Source: a virus. Taken from it: DNA of 64,000 nt. The position numbers were made by a program, and so were the translations under genes. Where the stretch lies: positions 61,802-125,801 of IMG/VR virus record IMGVR_UViG_3300044609_000656; one strand, given 5' to 3'. Positions 52,118 through 61,844 of the stretch are shown one piece after another (within the stretch, counting starts at the first letter, position 1; each line of letters begins with the position of its first letter). The notes beneath the pieces are model-generated. The model was not told the DNA's origin and searched no databases. It saw only the letters and a program-made list of their open reading frames with translations.

Positions 52118-52227
52118 TTAAATATATTAGAAAGATATACAATTTATTTGTAGAATATCTTGAAAATCAAAAAAGCAAAAAATTAGCTAAACAACTTAGC
52201 AAAGAAGATCCTTTCATTTACAAGTAA
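52114..52227 (+). CDS. 37-residue basic peptide
   Basis: The ATG overlaps the SGNH stop. MIKYIRKIYNLFVEYLENQ followed by a Lys-rich tail; amphipathic, possibly membrane-associated. Supported by coupling only. Confidence 0.45.
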   Translation: MIKYIRKIYNLFVEYLENQKSKKLAKQLSKEDPFIYK

Positions 52228-52229
52228 TC

Positions 52230-52571
52230 ATGGCAAAAATTTATGAATCTCCTGATAAAGGAGAGACTATTAGAGAAAGAGAATTTCTTGGTTGGCAAGA
52301 AGTTAAAGAATCTGATTTTAATAAAGTTATGGCAAAAGATCCTAAAAAGACTTGGATTTTGGAAGTTGAAAAAGTACATGAAGAATACTTTATTAGTCTC
52401 CCTGATGATTTGCTTGATGCTGCTAATTTAAAAGCAGGAGATAATATTGAGTGGGTTGATAATGGAGATGGTTCTTTTATTATGAAGAAACTTCCTTCTA
52501 TGACTTATGATGAAATGGTTGCAGAAGGTTGGACTATGACTGGGGATGGATTTTGGATAAAGGATAAATAA
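52230..52571 (+). CDS. AbrB/MazE-like domain protein
   Basis: 113 residues. The segment YFISLPDDLLDAANLKAGDNIEW with DGSFIMKKL (about 53-88) matches the swapped-hairpin AbrB fold ('h.lP.dll..l.l..GD.v.w'). It is flanked by helical ends (EREFLGWQEVKESDF, YDEMVAEGWTMTGDG). AbrB-type proteins bind DNA as dimers, so a phage transcription regulator is possible. Confidence 0.6.
   Translation: MAKIYESPDKGETIREREFLGWQEVKESDFNKVMAKDPKKTWILEVEKVHEEYFISLPDDLLDAANLKAGDNIEWVDNGDGSFIMKKLPSMTYDEMVAEGWTMTGDGFWIKDK
52564..52570 (+). promoter_or_regulatory. Late-type promoter motif ATAAATA
   Basis: ATAAATA at 52564-52570, overlapping the previous stop and 34 bases before the fibre-tip gene at 52598. Confidence 0.45.
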
Positions 52572-52597
52572 GTAAATAAAAGAAATATTATTGTAAG

Positions 52598-53161
52598 ATG
52601 GCAGCAACATTAACCGCTACTGGTTTAACTTTTGATGATGGAACTTCATTAAATTCAAAGTATGGAGTTTTGGCACAAGGAACAGTATCGGTATTCTTCC
52701 AAGCGGCAGCACCTACTGGATGGACAAAATCTACTACTCATAATGATAAAGCACTAAGAGTCGTGTCTGGAACTGGTGGTAACTTTGGATTTGGTGGAGT
52801 ATCTGGTGCTGGTGGACTGTCTTTTAGTACAGTATTTCCAAGTAGCACTTCTCCAGTGAGTGTTAGTTTTAGTGCAAATGTTCCTGTTACGGGCACTGTT
52901 GGAAATACAACACTAACAACTTCACAAATACCAAATCATACTCACAATTCTTTAACTGGTGGAAGTGGAAGTGCTTCAAGTGGAGGATCTAATTTCTTGG
53001 TAAGTGGTTCAAATAATACTGGAGGTGTTGTGTCTCCTGGAGGCACTGGTGGATCACATAATCACCCGTTTAGTGGTAATATAAATTTTACTGCAACTGG
53101 TAGTGGTTCTGTTGATTTAAGACTACAATATATTGACGTTATTCTCTGCTCTTTTGATTGA
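52598..53161 (+). CDS. Tail-collar/fibre-tip-like protein, copy 1
   Basis: 187 residues. PTGWTKSTTHNDKALRVVSG is typical of phage tail-collar domains. Two His-x-His motifs (PNHTHN and SHNHPFSG) surround a Gly/Ser-rich loop, as in the iron-binding tips of T4 gp37 and gp12. The ending LQYIDVILCSFD is also typical. Probably an adhesin that contacts the host receptor. One base separates it from copy 2. Confidence 0.72.
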   Translation: MAATLTATGLTFDDGTSLNSKYGVLAQGTVSVFFQAAAPTGWTKSTTHNDKALRVVSGTGGNFGFGGVSGAGGLSFSTVFPSSTSPVSVSFSANVPVTGTVGNTTLTTSQIPNHTHNSLTGGSGSASSGGSNFLVSGSNNTGGVVSPGGTGGSHNHPFSGNINFTATGSGSVDLRLQYIDVILCSFD

Positions 53162-53162
53162 T

Positions 53163-53738
53163 ATGGCAAGACTAACTTCTACTGGAATTTTATTTAACAT
53201 TGCAGATACAGCAAATTCTATTAATAGTTTTTACTGGATATATCCTGCTGGGACTATAAAGGTATTTTATCAAGCAACTGCACCTACAGGATGGACAAGA
53301 CTTTCTACCCAAAATAATAAAGCACTAAGAGTTGTTTCTGGGACTGGTGGTGGATCTGGTGGTGCAGTAAATTTTACAACGGTATTATCCTCAACGAGTG
53401 GTAACTTTTCTGTAAATGTTAACAGTACATTTCCAGTTGGATTAGCACCCACTACAGTTCAAAATGTTGGTAATACTACGTTAGCATTATCACAATTACC
53501 AGATCATACTCACGTAGGATTAACAGGAGGACTTGGAGGTTCTGGTGCAACTCCATTTAGTTTTGGTGGTTCTTTTCTTGTTTCTGGAACAAGTGGAACT
53601 GGTGGAATGAATGAAAATTCTGGAGGTGGGTCTCATACTCACCCATTTAGTGGATCTGCATCTATGAATGAAACTAGGGCATATTCGTTAAATTTAGCAG
53701 TTCAATATGTAGATACTATAATTTGCTCATTAAACTAA
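53163..53738 (+). CDS. Tail-collar/fibre-tip-like protein, copy 2
   Basis: 191 residues from the ATG at 53163. Paralogue of copy 1: PTGWTRLSTQNNKALRVVSG, PDHTHVG and SHTHPFSG, ending VQYVDTIICSLN. The Gly-rich loop between the His motifs differs in length and sequence, as expected for a receptor-binding part under selection. Confidence 0.72.
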   Translation: MARLTSTGILFNIADTANSINSFYWIYPAGTIKVFYQATAPTGWTRLSTQNNKALRVVSGTGGGSGGAVNFTTVLSSTSGNFSVNVNSTFPVGLAPTTVQNVGNTTLALSQLPDHTHVGLTGGLGGSGATPFSFGGSFLVSGTSGTGGMNENSGGGSHTHPFSGSASMNETRAYSLNLAVQYVDTIICSLN

Positions 53739-53750
53739 ATATGTTATAAT
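53723..53750 (+). promoter_or_regulatory. Possible sigma70-like promoter (TTGCTC-16-TATAAT)
   Basis: TTGCTC at 53723-53728 and the exact TATAAT at 53745-53750 with a 16-base spacer, across the end of the fibre-tip gene and before 53774. Confidence 0.5.
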
Positions 53751-53773
53751 ACAATTACTATTTTGACTTAATT

Positions 53774-54106
53774 ATGGCTCAAATTAAACCTGGAAACTTT
53801 TGCCCCCTAATTCAATCAGATTGTAAGGGACTTGAATGTTCTTGGTATACTCAAATAAGAGGTTCTAATCCAAATACAGGTGAACCTGTGGATGAATGGG
53901 CATGTGCAATTAATTGGTTGCCAATGTTGATGATTGAAAATTCTCAACAACAACGCTCAACTGGTGCAGCAGTTGAATCGTTTAGGAATGAAATGGTTAA
54001 AGCAAATGAAAGTAATATTAATGTTTTGTCTGCTGCTGCTCAAATGCTACAACATGCAAGAGAGAGTAAAGTTCTAACTGCTAACGTACAAGAGGTAACA
54101 GAATAA
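53774..54106 (+). CDS. Conserved Cys-containing phage protein
   Basis: 110 residues. Cys10, Cys17, Cys22 and Cys44 lie in FCPLIQSDCKGLECSWYTQI and EWACAINWLPML, a pattern that could bind zinc or an Fe-S cluster. The rest is helical. I recall close relatives in many T4-like phages; the function is unknown. Its stop overlaps the next start by one base. Confidence 0.65.
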   Translation: MAQIKPGNFCPLIQSDCKGLECSWYTQIRGSNPNTGEPVDEWACAINWLPMLMIENSQQQRSTGAAVESFRNEMVKANESNINVLSAAAQMLQHARESKVLTANVQEVTE

Positions 54107-54906
54107 TGAAAAAATTTACATTAATTGAACAGGATCGATACATTGGTATTGATGATGTTGGTATCTTCTTTGATGGAGATAAATGGCCTTTTGTCGATAT
54201 AGAACATCTTTGGGCGATTCAATGGAGGGATGATGGCACAGAGGATGGTAATGGGTGGATTGAATATGATTCGCCCGTTCCTAATACTCCATGCACTCGT
54301 AAAGACCTCAAACAGTATGTTGAGCATTTTGATGCTGAGTATGAGCGTCAAATGATTATAAAGAGAGAAAGAGAGGAAGAAGAAGGTAAAAAAGTTCTTT
54401 CTTGGCAAGATGCTATGAAAGAATTGGAAGAGCAAATGGAGGAAATGCAAAAGAGGCATGAAGAAAACATTGAGTCTATGAAGGAAGACCATGATTATCA
54501 AATACAAAAAGTTCATGAACGTGTAGCAGAAGCACACGAGAATCTCTTTTACTCTTCAAATACCCTTCAAGATAACATTGAGGAGAGTAAGACTGCATTT
54601 CAGTCCGAGCGTGGATATGATAATATCACGATTTTTGATGGTAGTGTAGATCCATCTCTATTTGATGATTCTGTAGATGAATCATTCTTTGATGATAAAG
54701 GAACGGAATCTTTGCTTGGTACTTACGATATTCAAACAAAACCAGATGATATAATTAAAGACTTTTCAAATATTGACTTAAGTGTACTGGATAGTGAATT
54801 TAATCTTGAGTTATTATTTGAAGAAGATCCAACCGAGCAAGTTGTAAATGAAATTGAAGAACTGATTGAAGAAGTTGAAAATGAGGAGGATTCCACTACT
54901 AAATGA
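54106..54906 (+). CDS. Conserved protein with coiled coil and acidic tail
   Basis: 266 residues. The N-terminal ~75 (DVGIFFDGDKWPFVDIEHLW, AIQWRDDGTEDGNGWIEY) is a module I recall from many phages. A long coiled coil (about 80-160, with EELEEQMEEMQKRHEENIE-type heptads) and a very acidic C-terminus follow. Perhaps a scaffold or regulator; no known activity. Confidence 0.6.
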   Translation: MKKFTLIEQDRYIGIDDVGIFFDGDKWPFVDIEHLWAIQWRDDGTEDGNGWIEYDSPVPNTPCTRKDLKQYVEHFDAEYERQMIIKREREEEEGKKVLSWQDAMKELEEQMEEMQKRHEENIESMKEDHDYQIQKVHERVAEAHENLFYSSNTLQDNIEESKTAFQSERGYDNITIFDGSVDPSLFDDSVDESFFDDKGTESLLGTYDIQTKPDDIIKDFSNIDLSVLDSEFNLELLFEEDPTEQVVNEIEELIEEVENEEDSTTK

Positions 54907-56057
54907 TCTCTAAATTATTTGAGGACAACTATGTTGTTGTCCCTAATTTTATATCATCGGAAAAAGCAAAACAATTAGCAGAAGAATTTAAAGAATATGC
55001 AGATACTTATGACTTGAAAGATGATTCTCAAGTATCTGGATGTAAAAGTAAATATGATTATATTTCTTTTGTAGAGTTATTGTGTGAAAAAACAACCACA
55101 GTGTCTCAGTTAATTGGAGAGACTGTGGTTCCCACGTATTCTTATGCTAGAATTTATCAACACGGTAATGAATTAAAACCCCATATTGACAAGTCTCATT
55201 GTGAGATATCTTTAACTATTAATTTAGATTGCGATCAACCGTGGGCAATATGGATTGAGACTCCTAAAAAGGTTAAAAAGGAAGTTATCTTGAATCCTGG
55301 AGATGCAATGTTGTATCTGGGAATAGAAGGTCCTCATTGGAGAGAACCATTTAAGGGAACTTATTGTAATCAAGTATTTTTGCATTATGTGAGAAGTCGT
55401 GGTCCTTATTTTTCTAGTTATTTTGATAAAGACCATAGAATAACCGAAGATGCGATTAAACCAGTTGAAACTAAACCAGTTGTGACAAAAAGTTTGAATA
55501 GTCTTGCAAGTTATATCAAAATTTATGATGACATTCTTACAAAGGAAGAGTGTGATTATATCATATCAGAATATAAAGATGCAGCAGAGTGGAGAACATC
55601 TGAGATAGGTGTTAATGGTAATCAAAATACTTCTGTTAGGAACTGCGATATTATTAACATATCTCTTGGTCATGTAATTGCTTCAAATCAAGATGTGAGG
55701 AAGAAAATAGATGATATTCTTTTTAACAAGTCTGCAGATGCAGCAAAAAAGTATATTGTAGACTTCCCAGATTGTTTTTTACAGTCCGATAGTGGATATG
55801 ACCTTTTAAGATATCAAGAGGGTGGATATTATATTCAACACACTGATAGTTTTAAAACACAACCAAGAACGATTTCAATGTCATTTAATTTAAATGATGA
55901 CTATGTTGGTGGTGAATTTGCATTCTTTGATAGAGAAATGCAAATTAGAACAAGACCAGGGTCTGTAATTGTATTCCCATCAAACTTTATGTACCCTCAT
56001 GAGGTTATGCCTGTCGTCAAAGGAACACGTTATTCAATTGTTACTTGGTTTACTTGA
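54903..56057 (+). CDS. Two-domain Fe(II)/2OG oxygenase
   Basis: 384 residues with two oxygenase domains in tandem. Domain 1 (about 1-185): ELKPHIDKSHCEISLTINL and NPGDAMLYLGIEGPHWREPF with His-x-Asp and distal His. Domain 2 (about 200-384), prolyl-4-hydroxylase-like: GGYYIQHTDSF, VGGEFAFFDREMQIRTRPGS, NFMYPHEVMPV and GTRYSIVTWF with the co-substrate Arg. Both appear catalytically complete. The substrate is unknown; possibly virion or host protein. Confidence 0.78.
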   Translation: MISKLFEDNYVVVPNFISSEKAKQLAEEFKEYADTYDLKDDSQVSGCKSKYDYISFVELLCEKTTTVSQLIGETVVPTYSYARIYQHGNELKPHIDKSHCEISLTINLDCDQPWAIWIETPKKVKKEVILNPGDAMLYLGIEGPHWREPFKGTYCNQVFLHYVRSRGPYFSSYFDKDHRITEDAIKPVETKPVVTKSLNSLASYIKIYDDILTKEECDYIISEYKDAAEWRTSEIGVNGNQNTSVRNCDIINISLGHVIASNQDVRKKIDDILFNKSADAAKKYIVDFPDCFLQSDSGYDLLRYQEGGYYIQHTDSFKTQPRTISMSFNLNDDYVGGEFAFFDREMQIRTRPGSVIVFPSNFMYPHEVMPVVKGTRYSIVTWFT

Positions 56058-56082
56058 CATGGGTTGTACTTGCTGATATATT
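56054..56082 (+). promoter_or_regulatory. Sigma70-like promoter (TTGACA-17-TATATT)
   Basis: TTGACA at 56054-56059 overlaps the oxygenase stop codon, and TATATT lies at 56077-56082; spacer 17. It starts the small-gene region from 56106. Confidence 0.75.
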
Positions 56083-56105
56083 ATCAATAGTTGTTACTTA
56101 ATTCT

Positions 56106-56327
56106 ATGGCACTCTCTCAATCTGTTGAAACAAGTTTGAAGGAAGCAGAATCTTCTCTTCGTAATGCTCTGTCTTATGCTGCTCGTCAGGAACGTCCAGT
56201 GGTTTGTAATGCAATCTCAAAGTTAATTGTAGATATTGACCATATCATGAGTTTTGATGGTCTTCTAGATAAATTGGAGCAGAGAATGGAAGGTGATAAG
56301 GGAACGTGGGGACCCTTTGGTTCGTAA
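56106..56327 (+). CDS. Small helical protein
   Basis: 73 residues from the ATG at 56106, which lies 24 bases after the -10 box. Helical (VETSLKEAESSLRNALSYAA) and ending in GTWGPFGS. Unknown function. The 96 bases after it (56328-56423) hold no further gene that I can support. Confidence 0.6.
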   Translation: MALSQSVETSLKEAESSLRNALSYAARQERPVVCNAISKLIVDIDHIMSFDGLLDKLEQRMEGDKGTWGPFGS

Positions 56328-56423
56328 AGATATGTTACAACACTCTAAAGATAATATTAAGAAATAACACTTTATGGTTAAATATTGTTAGAATATGCTG
56401 ACAAATTACGGGAGCACCCCAGC

Positions 56424-56585
56424 ATGACATTTTCTTCTAAGGACAACAAACTCACTGACGCCGAATGGCAGGAGATGATCGCTCTTAGAAATGCAATCAA
56501 TACTAATCCAGCTACAGTTCATCCAGAAAAAATGGAACAATTTACGGAATATCTTGTTCGTAGTATGAGGGAGATGGGGGCATAA
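56424..56585 (+). CDS. 53-residue small protein
   Basis: From the ATG at 56424, after GGGAGCACC. Contains DAEWQEMIALRNAINTNPATVHPEKMEQF, a short helical domain that I recall from cyanophage small proteins. No function. Confidence 0.55.
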   Translation: MTFSSKDNKLTDAEWQEMIALRNAINTNPATVHPEKMEQFTEYLVRSMREMGA

Positions 56586-56617
56586 GATTATAGATAATAT
56601 ATCTTATCTCAGCTAAA

Positions 56618-57106
56618 ATGGATTCTGATTTACTTGAATTATACAAAAAAGGTATAAAAACAAAAGAAGATATAGATATAGACTACAAAAGCAGACTAGA
56701 AGAAAAGAGTCGTGTTAAAAACATGATTCTTCTTAAAACTGGTCTGCTTTGTCTTAAGTTGACTGAAGATTATTTTAGGGAAACTCGTTATATTTTAAGT
56801 AGAAGAGAGTTAAGTGAGGGTGAAACAATAGAAATTAAATATAAAAGAAGAGAACTTGATAATAACTTAGATATTGGATCTTTTGTAATAGATGATGATA
56901 ATAAAAAGTATTATAGAGTTCTTCAATTAACTGATACTGATACTCCAAAGACACATTGTTTTATTGACATGAATACTGGTATTGTTTACAAACCACGTAA
57001 CTCTACGTCTGCAAATAAAAAACTTGCATGGGATATTGATGAGTGCATTAGAGTAGCAGATTGGAGAGGATATTACCTAAATGAAGATCCAAAAATAGGA
57101 GAATAA
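56618..57106 (+). CDS. Hypothetical protein, possibly RNA/nucleotide related
   Basis: 162 residues. The N-terminal half is helical and charged (KGIKTKEDIDIDYKSRLEEK). The C-terminal half has YYRVLQLTDTDTPKTHCFID, MNTGIVYKPRNST and NKKLAWDIDECIRV, a compact domain I cannot place. No catalytic motif. Confidence 0.5.
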   Translation: MDSDLLELYKKGIKTKEDIDIDYKSRLEEKSRVKNMILLKTGLLCLKLTEDYFRETRYILSRRELSEGETIEIKYKRRELDNNLDIGSFVIDDDNKKYYRVLQLTDTDTPKTHCFIDMNTGIVYKPRNSTSANKKLAWDIDECIRVADWRGYYLNEDPKIGE

Positions 57107-57110
57107 ATCT

Positions 57111-57512
57111 ATGGGAATGTTTGACACAATTAAAAGCTCTTACGATCTTGGTCCAGGATATCAAAAAGAATTGCAAACAAAAGACCTAGATTCTCTAATG
57201 AATCAATATTGGATTGATCCATTGGGTAGATTATTTTTGATTGACGATTCACATACTGCTGATTTTGTTGAATTAAAAGAAGGTGATGATGGATATAATC
57301 CTGATAGATTATTTTTAAACTTTATTTGGGTTCCAAATGGAATTCATGGTAAAGTTAGACCAGTTTATCACTATGGTGTTGTAGAGGTATATCCTTCTGT
57401 ATGGGATTGCAAATATTCACCCTATCCAAGTTGCAAAATATTTTTTAGGTATGGTATTATAGAAGAAGTAGTTCATAATACGGAACGTTTTGAGAAAGTA
57501 AGATATGCATAG
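57111..57512 (+). CDS. Conserved 'MFDT' phage protein
   Basis: 133 residues. MGMFDTIKSSYDLGPGYQKELQ, then LMNQYWIDPLGRLFLIDDSHTADF and VYHYGVVEVYPSVWD. I recall this beta-rich family in many phages and some bacteria; function unknown. Its end overlaps the next gene by eight bases. Confidence 0.65.
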   Translation: MGMFDTIKSSYDLGPGYQKELQTKDLDSLMNQYWIDPLGRLFLIDDSHTADFVELKEGDDGYNPDRLFLNFIWVPNGIHGKVRPVYHYGVVEVYPSVWDCKYSPYPSCKIFFRYGIIEEVVHNTERFEKVRYA

Positions 57513-57891
57513 TACACTAGTAAGAGGAACCGCACCAAAGAAAAACCGAACCACCATGAACTGGTGGGAATATTGGATTGGACATTGTTGGATGACAGGA
57601 TGGCAAAGTATTCGTGGAGCATTCCGAATCTGGGCAGACCTTATGACTTCCAACTATACCGATTATGCTTTGCCAAGAACCGTAGAAGACCCAGAACAAG
57701 AATGTCTTGAATGGTTTTGGACATCTCTTGGTGAAGATGATACATATCCAAAAGAGTTTCTTGAACATCTAATGCAAATGGTAGATGATATTGAGACTGG
57801 AAAAGAAAAACTTATTCCATTAGATGAAGACTTTTTTAATAGATTAAAGGACCTTACTGAAGACGTGGAGTTGGACGATGAACTTAATTAA
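57505..57891 (+). CDS. Hypothetical acidic protein
   Basis: 128 residues. A basic N-terminus (RGTAPKKNRTT) is followed by Trp-rich NWWEYWIGHCWMTGWQSIRG, then an acidic helical C-terminus. The Trp-rich stretch may lie at a membrane surface. Coupled to both neighbours. Confidence 0.55.
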   Translation: MHSTLVRGTAPKKNRTTMNWWEYWIGHCWMTGWQSIRGAFRIWADLMTSNYTDYALPRTVEDPEQECLEWFWTSLGEDDTYPKEFLEHLMQMVDDIETGKEKLIPLDEDFFNRLKDLTEDVELDDELN

Positions 57892-58168
57892 ATTTAATTA
57901 TAGAGAGGATTTTGGACATGATTGGTATGTACAAATTCTAAACACTGGAAGACACTTTCCAAAATTTATTAAAAACTATTCATTGATTCAGTTGTCAATC
58001 AGTTGGAATGATTCTTCTGGATGGCCTTATTTTCAAATTTGTTTTGGTTCTAATGGTTTTTTTAGCATTCTATTTTGGGTGCATAAATTTGGATTTGATC
58101 TTGATATACTATCACGCACTTGGAATTTTGAATGTTTGGAGAAATTGGATGAAGAATTTACCAGATAA
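57878..58168 (+). CDS. Hypothetical aromatic-rich protein
   Basis: 96 residues: FNYREDFGHDWYVQILNTGRHFP and SGWPYFQICFGSNGFFSILFWVH. Beta-rich and aromatic. The next gene begins within its last seven codons. Confidence 0.55.
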   Translation: MNLIKFNYREDFGHDWYVQILNTGRHFPKFIKNYSLIQLSISWNDSSGWPYFQICFGSNGFFSILFWVHKFGFDLDILSRTWNFECLEKLDEEFTR

Positions 58169-58349
58169 ACTACAACTGGATATAATGTGGACTGTTGCCA
58201 CATCAACCAGTATTGAAACTGGCACAAGACCCCATTACGGGTTTGCCGACCTGCTGTATGATTACCTCACAGACAACCTCAAAAACAAATACGGAGTTGA
58301 ACTTTACGATGGACCTCAAAGAGAAGAAGGCACTACTCAAGAAACTTGA
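58149..58349 (+). CDS. Small 'TSTSIETG' family protein, copy 1
   Basis: 66 residues from the ATG at 58149: LDIMWTVATSTSIETGTRP followed by HYGFADLLYDYLTDN. A paralogue at 60820 has an almost identical core, and 61 bases of DNA are exactly the same. Unknown function. Confidence 0.6.
   Translation: MKNLPDKLQLDIMWTVATSTSIETGTRPHYGFADLLYDYLTDNLKNKYGVELYDGPQREEGTTQET
58174..58234 (+). repeat. 61-base perfect direct repeat, copy 1 (copy 2 at 60845-60905)
   Basis: The bases starting AACTGGATATAATGTGG and ending GGCACAAGACCCCA are identical to 60845-60905. Similarity continues with scattered changes to about 58276. The repeat includes a TATAAT. Both copies lie in the coding frames of paralogous small genes. 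Confidence 0.9.
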
Positions 58350-58566
58350 GACTGCTTACAATACTTGTTTTGATTGTGGGAAGAAGTATGGAGTATATTC
58401 TGTAGGATGCTCCTCTGTTTATGAAGCAAAATGTGGTGTATGTGGTGAAACCAAACCTATCACTGAAACCCGTGACTTTGCTTACTTTGTTACTGGTATT
58501 CGCAAACTGAAACTGGAGATTCAAAATGAGAAGAGTAACAGTCAGACCCAAAAGCAAGAAGGCTAA
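58309..58566 (+). CDS. Zinc-ribbon-like small protein
   Basis: 85 residues from the ATG at 58309. Cys20-x2-Cys23, Cys34 and Cys42-x2-Cys45 (TCFDCGKKYG and KCGVCGETKP) form a probable zinc ribbon, with helices either side. I recall close relatives in T4-like cyanophages. It could bind DNA, RNA or RNA polymerase. It overlaps the next gene by 41 bases. Confidence 0.65.
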   Translation: MDLKEKKALLKKLETAYNTCFDCGKKYGVYSVGCSSVYEAKCGVCGETKPITETRDFAYFVTGIRKLKLEIQNEKSNSQTQKQEG

Positions 58567-58720
58567 AAACCGCCTTGCGAATATGATGGACAACAATCCT
58601 ATCTGCATTGTAGAGCAGGACAAAGGTGATGGTATGATGTTTCTTGCATCAGAGAACCAGAAATACTTTTTCTGGGTGAATATTAACGATTTTTGGGAAT
58701 GTGATTGGGAGGTTATTTAA
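58526..58720 (+). CDS. Small 'FWV' family protein, copy 2
   Basis: 64 residues beginning MRRVTVRPKSKKAKNRLANM, then CIVEQDKGDGMMFLASENQK, YFFWVN and a final WEVI. Very similar to the protein at 61363 and distantly to that at 41901. The basic N-terminus suggests nucleic-acid contact. The stop overlaps the nuclease start. Confidence 0.65.
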   Translation: MRRVTVRPKSKKAKNRLANMMDNNPICIVEQDKGDGMMFLASENQKYFFWVNINDFWECDWEVI

Positions 58721-59142
58721 TGTCTACTACTGCATCGCGGGATACTACCACTGGCACAACATATGAAAAAGAAATTGAAAGTTTATTGGAGCAATACACT
58801 AGTCATGAATTTCAATCACAAGTTAATGTTGGTCTGAAGCGTAATGGTGGCAAGCATTATGTAGATATACTCCTTAATGGAGATATATTGTTGAGTCTCA
58901 AGTATCAACGTGTTCAAGGAACTGCTGAAGAAAAGGTTCCTTTTGAAATTATGAAATTGCATCACACTTGTGTTGATTATGGATATGACTCTGCTATTCT
59001 TGTTCTTGCTGGTCCCGATAAAGCTTGGAAGTGGAAGGATTATTATTTGGGTGAACAGTTTCAAAGTGATATGAAGAAGATTTACCCAACTGTACGCATT
59101 ATTTCACACGAACAATTTGTTGAGGAATTTCTCTGTGACTAA
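58720..59142 (+). CDS. PD-(D/E)XK-type nuclease, paired with Dam methylase
   Basis: 140 residues from the ATG at 58720. TTYEKEIESLLE gives the helix Glu, HYVDILLNGDILLSLKYQ the Asp49 and the S-x-K61 core, and QGTAEEKVPFEIMKL follows. This fits a type II restriction endonuclease-like PD-(D/E)XK protein. It is directly upstream of an adenine methylase, overlapping it by eight bases, the usual layout of a restriction-modification pair. It could instead be a phage nuclease degrading unmodified host DNA. Confidence 0.65.
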   Translation: MSTTASRDTTTGTTYEKEIESLLEQYTSHEFQSQVNVGLKRNGGKHYVDILLNGDILLSLKYQRVQGTAEEKVPFEIMKLHHTCVDYGYDSAILVLAGPDKAWKWKDYYLGEQFQSDMKKIYPTVRIISHEQFVEEFLCD

Positions 59143-59953
59143 TAAACCATTTTTAAAATGGGCAGGTAGCAAGTATCGTGTTCTGCCTCATATCTTGCCG
59201 TTGATTGGTTCTCCCAAACAATACATTGAACCATTCTCTGGTTCAATGGCAGTTGCACTTAACGTAGCATCTGATTGTATGGTGTTGAATGATTTTAATA
59301 GTGATTTGATTTCTCTTTATCGTTATGTAATGAATGACGAAGAGTTTGTTGATGATTGTGAGAAAGTGTGTGCTGATAGCAATAACCAAGAAGTTTTTTA
59401 TCAGTATCGTGATATTTTCAATACAACCTCAGATTCTCGTCATAAAGCGATTTTATTCATCTATTTGAATCGTCATTGTTTTAATGGGTTGACTCGTTAT
59501 AACAAAAAGGGACAGTTCAATGTTCCTTTTGGTAAGTATAGTTCTCCATACTTCCCCCGTAAAGAAATGGAAAACTTCAAAGAAGTATTCAAGCAAAATC
59601 AATCTGTTCGTATGACTGCATATGACTTTGCTGCAGATGAATTGTATCAAAATATAGATTCCAACACAGTGGTCTATTTTGATCCACCATATCTGCCTAT
59701 TAATGATACTGCATACTTCACTGATTATGCATCATGTGGTTTTAATTATGCTGATCAAGTTCGTTTGCGTGATTTAGTTCTAAATCTTGCTAATCGTGGT
59801 GCTCGTGTTATTGTTAGCAATCATGACACTCCAGCAGCACGGGAATTATATTCCTCAGCATCTCTAACGACTATTGATGTTTCTAGAACAATTGCTGCAA
59901 ACAAAAACTCAAGAGAAAAAGTTAAGGAATTGCTTGCTGTCTGGAACAGTTGA
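59135..59953 (+). CDS. Dam-like N6-adenine DNA methyltransferase
   Basis: 272 residues with a GTG start at 59135 inside the nuclease stop region; no ATG is available and a TTG at 59117 is less likely. FLKWAGSK (residues 6-13) is the AdoMet motif of the Dam/MT-A70-like D12 class, QYIEPFSGSMAVAL follows, and DPPY (183-186) is the catalytic motif. Dam enzymes usually methylate GATC. Likely protects phage DNA from its own or host nucleases. Confidence 0.9.
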   Translation: MTNKPFLKWAGSKYRVLPHILPLIGSPKQYIEPFSGSMAVALNVASDCMVLNDFNSDLISLYRYVMNDEEFVDDCEKVCADSNNQEVFYQYRDIFNTTSDSRHKAILFIYLNRHCFNGLTRYNKKGQFNVPFGKYSSPYFPRKEMENFKEVFKQNQSVRMTAYDFAADELYQNIDSNTVVYFDPPYLPINDTAYFTDYASCGFNYADQVRLRDLVLNLANRGARVIVSNHDTPAARELYSSASLTTIDVSRTIAANKNSREKVKELLAVWNS

Positions 59954-60061
59954 TAAACTGTCCACTGGTGCCACATCAATTAAATTTATGGTTTATAATA
60001 ACTTCGGTCCAAACACATGTTTGACTGAATTTATGCTCTCTACTATCGAGGAAAATTGTTA

Positions 60062-60250
60062 ATGAAAACTTCTACTGCTCTTGGTGTTGCTTTTGGTGTA
60101 ATTGTCCTTGCTGTTGCGGGACTATTCTTTGAAGCATGGTTGCTTGGATTGATTCTGTCTTGGTTTGGTGTATCCTTGTCCTTCTGGCAGAACTTTGCTA
60201 TCATCTTCCTTGCTAATCTTATTTTTAAATCTAACGTTTCTACAAAATGA
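60062..60250 (+). CDS. Two-helix small membrane protein
   Basis: 62 residues from the ATG at 60062. Hydrophobic segments at about 8-32 and 35-55 (VAFGVIVLAVAGLFFEAWLLG and FWQNFAIIFLANLIF) with few charges. It overlaps the prohibitin-like gene by four bases, suggesting a membrane complex. The 108 bases before it (59954-60061) hold a TATAAT at 59994 but no clear gene. Confidence 0.65.
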   Translation: MKTSTALGVAFGVIVLAVAGLFFEAWLLGLILSWFGVSLSFWQNFAIIFLANLIFKSNVSTK

Positions 60251-60657
60251 CTAATCGTAATTCTGGTTCTATTGACCCCGCTGTTGCTTGGATTGTGCTT
60301 GGTGTGGGTGTGTTTGCTGCCATCGTATTCATCGGGGGTCCTCAATACAACGTGTGGCAACAATCGCTAGCTGGTAAAGCAGAACTCCAGAAGGCAGAAT
60401 ACACTCGTCAGGTAGCAGTTCTTGAGGCACAAGCAAAGAAAGATAGTGCCCAACAACTTGCTGAGGCAGAGGTTATTCGTGCTGGTGGTGTTGCTAAAGC
60501 AAACCAAATCATCGGTGATTCGCTGAAAGACAACCGTGAGTATCTTCAGTATCTGTATATCACTGGATTGGAAGAAGGTTCTAACAAAGGTAACGTAACT
60601 GTTTATGTGCCAACTGAAGGTGGTATGCCTGTTCCTACTCTTCAAATGAACAAATGA
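60247..60657 (+). CDS. Truncated prohibitin/SPFH-like membrane protein
   Basis: 136 residues. One membrane segment (about 14-31, AWIVLGVGVFAAIVFIGG), then a helical AGKAELQKAEYTRQVAVLEAQ region and AEAEVIRAGGVAKANQII, GDSLKDNREYLQYLYITGL, VTVYVPTEGGMPVP. The helical and C-terminal parts match prohibitin/stomatin C-terminal regions; the SPFH beta domain is missing. It could form rings in the host membrane, altering lysis or superinfection. Confidence 0.6.
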   Translation: MTNRNSGSIDPAVAWIVLGVGVFAAIVFIGGPQYNVWQQSLAGKAELQKAEYTRQVAVLEAQAKKDSAQQLAEAEVIRAGGVAKANQIIGDSLKDNREYLQYLYITGLEEGSNKGNVTVYVPTEGGMPVPTLQMNK

Positions 60658-60836
60658 TGAAACCTAAGTTCCGTGTTATCTTGGAACAGGCAATTGATGA
60701 AGGTGTTCGTTACGGTTATCGTCACGCACACAAACATGTAGAAAATCCAACTGAAGAATCAATCTGTGAACATATTGAGGAGCAGGTTATGTCTTCAATC
60801 TATGAATACTTTGACTTTGATGAAACCACTACCTGA
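60657..60836 (+). CDS. Small hypothetical protein
   Basis: 59 residues from the ATG at 60657 (60654 is also possible), overlapping the previous stop. VILEQAIDEGVRYGYRHAHK and an acidic C-terminus. Helical, no known family. Its last 17 bases overlap the next gene. Confidence 0.55.
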   Translation: MKPKFRVILEQAIDEGVRYGYRHAHKHVENPTEESICEHIEEQVMSSIYEYFDFDETTT

Positions 60837-61005
60837 TAAGAAAGAACTGGATATAATGTGGACTGTTGCCACATCAACCAGTATTGAAACTGGCACAAGA
60901 CCCCAGTACGGGTTCGCCCAGATGCTGTATGATTACATCACAGACAAAAAACCTCTTGTTGAACTCAATTATGACCTACAAAGCAACCCTGAAAGTTCAG
61001 TTTGA
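60820..61005 (+). CDS. Small 'TSTSIETG' family protein, copy 2
   Basis: 61 residues from the ATG at 60820: LPDKKELDIMWTVATSTS and IETGTRPQYGFAQMLYDYIT. Paralogue of 58149 with near-identical DNA. The C-terminus after YDYITDKK differs completely, as if recombination joined different ends. Confidence 0.6.
   Translation: MKPLPDKKELDIMWTVATSTSIETGTRPQYGFAQMLYDYITDKKPLVELNYDLQSNPESSV
60845..60905 (+). repeat. 61-base perfect direct repeat, copy 2 (copy 1 at 58174-58234)
   Basis: Identical to 58174-58234 over all 61 bases, including silent positions; similarity continues to about 60947. The copies are 2.67 kb apart in the same orientation, so recombination between them would delete the nuclease-methylase pair. 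Confidence 0.9.
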
Positions 61006-61375
61006 TTCTGAATGGACTTCCACCAATTACAGTAGTGGTTTTGATGATACAGTGCTCCCCGAAGAGCATTATACTTTTCAGGTTCCTGCCGAAGACCTTA
61101 ACATTTATCAACTGTTTCGCTTCTTCGCAACTGTTGCCCGTGCAATGGGTCACAGTGAAATCAACATTATGAAAGGTGGTTGTGGTCTTGCATTTGGTGA
61201 AGAGAGAAGTCAAGAAGATATGCGTAAGGTTGCCGATGAGTTTGAACTGACTTTGGGTGAGGACTTGAAGAAGAAGTTTGATGATATGCGAGAAGCAGAA
61301 GCAGAGTGGGCACGACTTAAAAAAGGCCCTATGGGAACTGTCCTGACTGATGAGAAAGATCAATGCGTCGAGTAA
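60971..61375 (+). CDS. Hypothetical protein
   Basis: 134 residues from the ATG at 60971. The N-terminal half is strand-rich (YKATLKVQFDSEW, EEHYTFQVPAEDLNIYQLFRF) and the C-terminal half is an acidic helix (EDLKKKFDDMREAEAEWARLK). No recognised domain. Its end overlaps the FWV copy 3 gene. Confidence 0.55.
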   Translation: MTYKATLKVQFDSEWTSTNYSSGFDDTVLPEEHYTFQVPAEDLNIYQLFRFFATVARAMGHSEINIMKGGCGLAFGEERSQEDMRKVADEFELTLGEDLKKKFDDMREAEAEWARLKKGPMGTVLTDEKDQCVE

Positions 61376-61578
61376 CAGTCAAACCCAAAAGCAGCAAAGC
61401 GAAGAATCGTCTTGCTAATACTATGGACAACAATCCTGTTTGTATTGTAGAGCAGGATACTGGCGGTGAATTGTTTCTTGCTTCCGAAAATCGTAAATAC
61501 TTTTTCTGGGTTAGCACTCGTATTGGTGTTAATCGTTTCGGTGACAAATCTGACGCACATTGGGAGGTTGTTGAATGA
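61363..61578 (+). CDS. Small 'FWV' family protein, copy 3
   Basis: 71 residues starting MRRVTVKPKSSKAKNRLANT, with CIVEQDTGGELFLASENRK and YFFWVS, then a short insert and HWEVVE. Close paralogue of 58526. Both copies follow a TSTSIETG-family gene, so the whole block was duplicated. Confidence 0.65.
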   Translation: MRRVTVKPKSSKAKNRLANTMDNNPVCIVEQDTGGELFLASENRKYFFWVSTRIGVNRFGDKSDAHWEVVE

Positions 61579-61844
61579 GTTTTTCTAAGACTGTTTCTGT
61601 TTTTGCTGCACTTGCAAGTATTTTTGCTGCTGGTGCTACTGGTTGGAAACTAGCAGATTCTCAAAAAGAAGTTCCTTTGAGTCCATTAGATCAAAAGGTT
61701 ATGGAACTGGAGAAGAAACTTAAAGAAGTACAAGAACCACAAGTTGCTCCACCACCAATTAATCTTCCAGCACCTATCGTTCAACCAACATCACTTCCCG
61801 CTCCAACACCACCTCCTCCCGTTCCCGAAAATGCCACTCCTTGA
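61575..61844 (+). CDS. Membrane-anchored proline-rich protein
   Basis: 89 residues. An N-terminal hydrophobic segment (VSVFAALASIFAAGATGW) anchors it; a short helix (LDQKVMELEKKLKEV) and a long Pro-rich tail (PTSLPAPTPPPPVPENA) follow. The layout recalls spanin or periplasm-crossing proteins, but no lipobox is present. Role in lysis or envelope contact is only inference. Confidence 0.55.
   Translation: MSFSKTVSVFAALASIFAAGATGWKLADSQKEVPLSPLDQKVMELEKKLKEVQEPQVAPPPINLPAPIVQPTSLPAPTPPPPVPENATP

Follow-up and report, generated by a model that had tools for sequence, protein, structure and literature searches.

A 61-nt direct repeat in a virus record marks the core of a small cyanophage gene and a probable crossover site at the edge of a cargo slot

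The 64,000-nucleotide (nt) stretch analyzed here (the window) spans positions 61,802 to 125,801 of the 125.8-kb virus record IMGVR_UViG_3300044609_000656, which holds two copies of a small gene, A, that share a perfect direct repeat. The repeat copies, at 58174–58234 and 60845–60905, match at 61/61 bases and are nested within a 132-nt repeat of 87% identity (58145–58276 and 60816–60947), the top family in a scan of the whole window for direct repeats of at least 40 nt. Both copies lie in frame within open reading frames (ORFs) on the + strand that have relatives in viral contigs: A1 (58149–58349; 66 amino acids [aa]) and A2 (60820–61005; 61 aa). Over the first 126 nt, A1 and A2 differ at 16 of the 65 positions outside the repeat, and beyond nt 126 they cannot be aligned. 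On the 3′ side of each copy is an F gene matching phrog_1653, namely, F1 (58526–58720; E = 2e-13) and F2 (61363–61578; E = 5e-14), also on the + strand, which form a second pair of paralogues, weaker than A1/A2. The first-pass annotation had reported a perfect repeat within otherwise diverged small genes, each copy upstream of an "FWV" family gene, and both of these observations hold.

A is a small unnamed protein family of T4-like cyanophages, and the 61-nt repeat is its core. No family match was obtained in Pfam, PHROG, NCBIfam, or PADLOC, a sequence search of the PDB gave only matches with E = 0.8 to 1.0, and the predicted structure consists of two helices (predicted local distance difference test [pLDDT] score of 60). 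Of the named DNA matches to the region, Synechococcus phage S-SRM01 ranks first, and the remaining matches are mostly T4-like cyanophages; A is present in only three annotated phage records (two of which represent the same phage), yet it is common among uncultured viral contigs.

The copies were originally described as flanking a nuclease-methylase block, which is correct as to position, although the flanked set is longer (X–F1–nuclease–methylase–p60062–STO–Z) and, as detailed below, mostly older than the second copy. All of these genes are on the + strand: X (58312–58566), an 84-aa ORF with CxxC pairs that overlaps the end of A1 and the start of F1; a PD-(D/E)XK-type nuclease gene (58720–59142; Pfam PDDEXK_11); a Dam-type adenine methylase gene (59117–59953; TIGR00571), whose likely start is the GTG at 59135; p60062 (60062–60250), a small membrane-type ORF; STO (60247–60657; phrog_11227), labeled "protease"; and the small gene Z (60654–60836), in which the first bases of A2 supplant the 3′ end. 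The second copy opens a cassette, A2–Y–F2–p61575 (60820–61826, + strand), in which Y (60971–61375; phrog_6458) takes the place that X has in the first. X and Y are unrelated genes. The last gene of the cassette, p61575 (61575–61844), is placed there by gene order in relatives: a search of 142 sequences, with duplicates counted, shows it ahead of p61831 in 48.

Comparing relatives for copy number and for the intervening genes, a course suggested in the first-pass annotation, mostly recovers a single copy (viral sequences compared with the window are designated by L-numbers, such as L005, L010, and L088). Searches of viral contigs confirmed 202 relatives with A1 as the query and 166 with A2; the best 80 of each were taken, and the 119 A genes collected were reduced to 82 after deduplication. 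Both copies recur unchanged in L005, L006, L008, and L009, same-virus contigs that are 99.95 to 100% identical across their aligned parts, so the repeat is no assembly quirk of a single contig; two further same-virus contigs end inside the region and have one copy each. Among 29 whole records hand-chosen from the contigs and phages collected, many of which may be fragments, 26 possess one A, one (the record of L111) possesses two, and two possess none. Because the two copies in L111 differ at 9/61 positions, there is no general homogenization of copies within one genome.

The closest relative is L010, which aligns with the window at 98.7% over 52149–58713, at 98.6% over 59141–60254, and at 94.8% over 60337–60818, and then again from window position 61827 (87%), with 4 nt in place of A2–Y–F2–p61575. 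L010 has a single A (A1) together with the methylase (98.6% DNA identity), p60062, STO, and Z; it lacks the window's nuclease, has a different ORF at that position with the methylase adjoining, and has an additional ORF ahead of STO. In L010, L122, and L025, Z runs straight into p61831, whereas the window has the beginning of A2 where Z would otherwise end; since the Z–p61831 adjacency recurs in L122 and L025, the window state looks derived. L088, in turn, equals the window across 60942–61621, a 680-nt identical run that starts inside A2, versus 12 differing positions in the 5′ part of A2 (60820–60941), and L088 is mostly unmatched to the window outside this run. The identity of Y–F2 over 680 nt points to a recent import, and the order A–Y–F2–p61575–p61831 is found in other sequences, too. 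The module is, then, absent from the matching site in one relative and near-identical in an otherwise different phage, the pattern of a lateral acquisition. What was gained laterally is most likely the second cassette, and not the nuclease-methylase block; judged from gene order, most of the block between A1 and A2 is older than the second copy.

The arrangement of A and F recurs well beyond the window, with 63 of the 82 A genes followed by F at a distance of no more than 2.5 kb. Thirty-nine of these 63 intervals hold X as the sole cargo identified, 8 hold Y, 3 hold W, and 7 hold nothing; the others hold X with a GIY-YIG gene (2 cases), Y with a GIY-YIG gene, W with an HNH gene and Y, W with X, and a phosphoesterase with p63620 (1 case each). 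The GIY-YIG and HNH proteins match homing or HNH endonucleases in PHROG, and the Pfam matches of the former fall below the curated cutoff. On this evidence of sequence and order, A and F frame a slot for X, Y, W, homing-type endonucleases, or nothing. Genes for a calcineurin-type phosphoesterase, a matrixin-like peptidase, and a D12-class methylase were also seen in or near the slot (L045, 2397–3194; L094, 6724–7245; L063, 1921–2814). A literature search, with subscription papers mostly outside its coverage, returned no description of gene A or of the A-F slot.

The two ends of A are nearly unlinked. As a measure of linkage, we took rho between the pairwise distances of gene parts, comparing nt 1 to 42 of A with nt 87 to 126; rho amounted to 0.02 (P = 0.35; 79 of the 82 genes) or 0.05 (80 genes), and to 0.10 after correction for split-half reliability. 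For the same 79 genes, nt 87 to 126 track the downstream DNA (0.36; P = 0.001), and nt 1 to 42 yield 0.12 with the upstream DNA (P = 0.010) and −0.13 with the downstream DNA. Other genes at the same spacing mostly range from 0.2 to 0.85. Because the A genes had been chosen by their similarity to A, which could bias the selection, the test was repeated on loci picked via F or p57505, of which 53 of 160 contain A: here, rho was −0.03 over 34 unique A genes (0.05 for the 14 A genes of the p57505-picked part), and control genes had values of 0.17 to 0.81 before correction. The first and second halves of X are likewise unlinked, and a second crossover zone near X codons 58 to 66 is possible. A second handle in F was considered on account of a near-zero value that was limited by high-scoring segment pairs (HSPs), and was dropped once full coverage gave 0.42.

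The 61-mer itself is a rare haplotype. Over these 61 nt, the 3,320 cross pairs of the 82 A genes have a median of 11 differences, and among 1,917 pairs that differ at 14 or more of the 65 outer positions, 4 (A1/A2 included) are identical inside, so that the match of A1 and A2 exceeds chance. Apart from A1/A2, no A genes but those of L010 and L125 share the 61 nt exactly with the window, and the sole further identical pair is formed by the related contigs L029 and L031; a scan of all viral contigs located the exact 61-mer in eight stretches: the six same-virus contigs, L010, and L125. Four A genes therefore have the window haplotype without a mismatch, and the surroundings differ in three of these. 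The A gene of L125 equals A2 over nt 1 to 86, and nt 59 to 126 of A2 equal L084, in contexts that are otherwise different; the flanks of L125 are unrelated to the window (50/200 matches upstream and 49/204 downstream). Its sister L126 shares the flanks of L125 (495/500 and 371/374) and matches the core at 53/60 positions (P = 2e-5 for this split). That the core of L125 equals A2 but is unlike that of its sister indicates that a short patch moved between phages, and in L125 the haplotype, compared in this way, looks like a short converted patch. Perfect runs of at least 61 nt occur in 13 of the 2,950 A pairs whose downstream DNA is unrelated.

Taken together, we consider it probable (roughly 0.68) that the core of A serves as a crossover site, through which the window lineage gained its second cargo slot laterally, with a recently exchanged core accounting for the identical 61 nt. 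The A core is common to phages with unrelated gene surroundings, so a homologous crossover is possible there, and co-infecting phages would recombine at the core as a handle of homology, presumably by a UvsX-type system (a RecA/UvsX-type gene is present in six of eight related records). Each such crossover would bring in a new downstream set, consisting of the 3′ tail of A with X, Y, W, an endonuclease, or nothing. At first, there may have been a single slot, A1–X–F1, in the window phage, whose lineage would then have acquired A2–Y–F2–p61575 between Z and p61831 by recombining with a phage resembling L088. The 61 identical nt would stem from one or more recent short-tract exchanges of the core, within the genome or between phages, with no fresh duplication. 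T4 UvsX-dependent joining is described at 3 to 4 nt, and the classic minimum for homologous recombination is about 50 to 150 nt (PMC8262927); by the latter figure, 61 nt of identity is within range. On the whole, these results suggest that the repeat chiefly records the usual mosaic exchange of genes among phages.

Several observations weigh against this interpretation. Products of an A1-A2 crossover were absent from the viral contigs (no deletion joints and no reciprocal joints), a core patch was detected in just one of 13 near-identical contig pairs, and the record to which the window belongs, itself partial, yielded no gene of the RecA family. The link between the 5′ part of A and the upstream DNA is weak, and distances in the upstream DNA are likewise correlated with those of nt 87 to 126 (0.21; P = 0.001). 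Near-zero linkage was obtained for the second half of X and for F1 as well (24 sequences, HSP limited), and the F-picked part of the independent set alone gave a rho of 0.18 (21 A genes). Finally, A is not singled out by the approximately unbiased (AU) tree test, in which each gene represented by at least 24 sequences was rejected.

The alternative that survives best is intragenomic conversion, in which the core of A1 was copied into A2, or the reverse, after the cassette had arrived, with L125 a later recipient. The window genome displays the hallmark of conversion, since both copies reside in one genome with 61/61 identity inside and diverged flanks outside, and short conversion-like patches are known in the A core from L125 and L126. 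This alternative also fits with the cassette gain proposed above. Donor and recipient may have been in the same genome, the haplotype being present in L010 and L125 as well; its occurrence in the unrelated context of L125, however, requires a step across phages regardless; the 9/61 differences in the other two-copy record, L111, likewise speak against it. We hold strictly intragenomic conversion to be tenable but doubtful. The gene conversion that the first-pass annotation proposed is accordingly retained in the broad sense of a recent exchange (although silent positions are free to vary across the family, four A genes have this haplotype unaltered) and not as a process strictly within one genome, because L125 carries the haplotype in another context.

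Two alternatives are unlikely to a similar degree. If the two-slot state were ancestral and the second slot had been lost by L010, L122, and L025, an identical gene order would result, and S-PM2 is known to have lost genes of this sort in extensive deletions (PMC4503421). Against loss stand the Z–p61831 junction, with an intact Z end in three lineages as opposed to the overwritten one of the window, the identity of Y–F2 with L088, and the lack of any other two-slot genome of the window type among the records and loci examined. Alternatively, a homing-type endonuclease encoded in the slot could cut the A gene of a co-infecting phage, whereupon repair would copy the slot. Intronless homing is known in T4-like phages (PMC2993671), and GIY-YIG or HNH genes are situated in 4 of 63 slots; in the other 59, including both slots of the window, none was identified.

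Quite improbable is nucleotide-level constraint alone, by which a binding site, promoter, or RNA element would preserve the 61 nt. In its favor, changes at third positions on the tree number 0 to 5 at codons 20, 21, 23 to 26, and 36 to 38, versus mostly 10 to 26 elsewhere; two rare codons persist (GGC25 in 75/81 and GGG31 in 68/81 A genes); and codon use in A departs from the background by a mean divergence of 1.00, versus 0.26 to 0.61 in 11 other families. For the whole 61 nt, constraint is contradicted by the relatives' many differences and by codons 10 to 19, which vary freely inside the repeat, and the best 7-codon window of low change was not significant (permutation P = 0.16). TATAAT, noted in the repeat by the first-pass annotation, is present in 18 of 82 A genes, too few for a promoter role, and sigma-70-like sites in the region number 12 against 14.2 expected, with two overlapping ones in A1 and none in A2. 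An RNA element was rejected as well: Rfam had no match at gathering score (only subthreshold, eukaryotic-type matches), the RNAalifold consensus fold of A is weak (−1.15 kcal/mol), and hand-drawn hairpins lack covariation and do no better than shuffles; one fold of A1 reached a z-score of −2.5 versus shuffles and had no backing from the alignment. An overlapping frame was dismissed because the +1 frame is open in 45/82 and reverse frame 0 in 42/82. The part with constant codons corresponds to 58206–58232 and 60877–60903 and holds an inverted repeat, CCAGT-N6-ACTGG, that has no covariation support. Of the nucleic acid function once suggested for the repeat, the promoter is thus discarded, and constraint on codons 20, 21, and 23 to 26, with neither a structure nor an overlapping frame, is possible. 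These constant codons may simply mark the stretch exchanged most often. That the core is under selection as a recombination handle, its crossover zone retaining rare codons and unusually constant silent sites and the phages that keep it being able to trade downstream cargo, we regard as rather improbable. Finally, tandem duplication with insertion of the nuclease-methylase block between the copies, the remaining suggestion of the first-pass annotation, accounts for copies that flank the block but is highly improbable, being ruled out for most of the block by the single A and retained methylase, p60062, STO, and Z of L010 (the extra part being the A2 cassette) and contradicted by the unrelatedness of X and Y.

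Some features apart from the repeat deserve mention. The gene 5′ of the Dam-type methylase is swapped between the window (58720–59953) and L010 (6569–7971), a PD-(D/E)XK-type nuclease in the former and a phrog_15364 ORF in the latter; the L010 ORF resembles MutH weakly, with a match (E = 0.0013) that falls far short of the cutoff, and the two are possibly exchangeable GATC restriction partners. The predicted structure of a 196-aa ORF of L010 is unusable (pLDDT of 39). Further upstream, the window contains another direct repeat (52679–52780 and 53250–53351; 102 nt, 78%, 571 nt apart), matched across in L010, too, and a 384-aa protein (54903–56057) whose PHROG matches are labeled, in PHROG's own terms, ferrochelatase and 2OG-Fe(II) oxygenase.

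With a crossover zone in A, a puzzling perfect repeat becomes a readable recombination history, and this zone is the part most worth following up. In freshwater and coastal cyanophages, small unknown genes fill large regions and constantly change their order, and the mechanism by which they are traded is called unclear (PMC4503421); the recurring A-F slot offers a concrete sequence for tests of such trading, and the A core, if a true handle, would be a coding counterpart of a recombination site.

Modular shuffling mediated by PeSL sequences has reportedly been described in T4-type phages, by Arbiol in 2010 and by Comeau in 2014. Like the A core, PeSLs are short conserved sequences that recur and aid the exchange of modules among T4-like phages (as related in PMC4503421). 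The A core differs in that it is coding and overlaps neighboring genes, with no conserved promoter and no supported stem-loop; the intergenic position of PeSLs is not matched by a repeat inside the ORFs A1 and A2. The accessory regions of cyanophages, such as the S-PM2 "ORFanage" (ORFs 017 to 050), resemble the window in their small unknown genes and shuffled order, and PMC4503421 reports a deletion of the ORFanage, deems PeSL shuffling unlikely there, and calls the mechanism of acquisition unclear. Three genes of the window (p62940, p62034, and p61831) match S-PM2p019, p021, and p022, within the ORFanage; A was not found in S-PM2, and the recurring slot with a crossover gene described here sets our case apart from that account. 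Mosaicism, homing, and recombination in cyanophages are treated in PMC2993671 and PMC5112629. Free-standing endonuclease genes, as in the intronless homing of T4-like phages (PMC2993671), likewise reside in some A-F slots, with the difference that they are absent from most, including both in the window. Conserved boundary or linker sequences are known from mosaic lambdoid phages and mycobacteriophages, where homology at module edges permits the exchange of unrelated modules; A is unlike these in that the homology lies inside a whole small gene with a conserved protein of its own.

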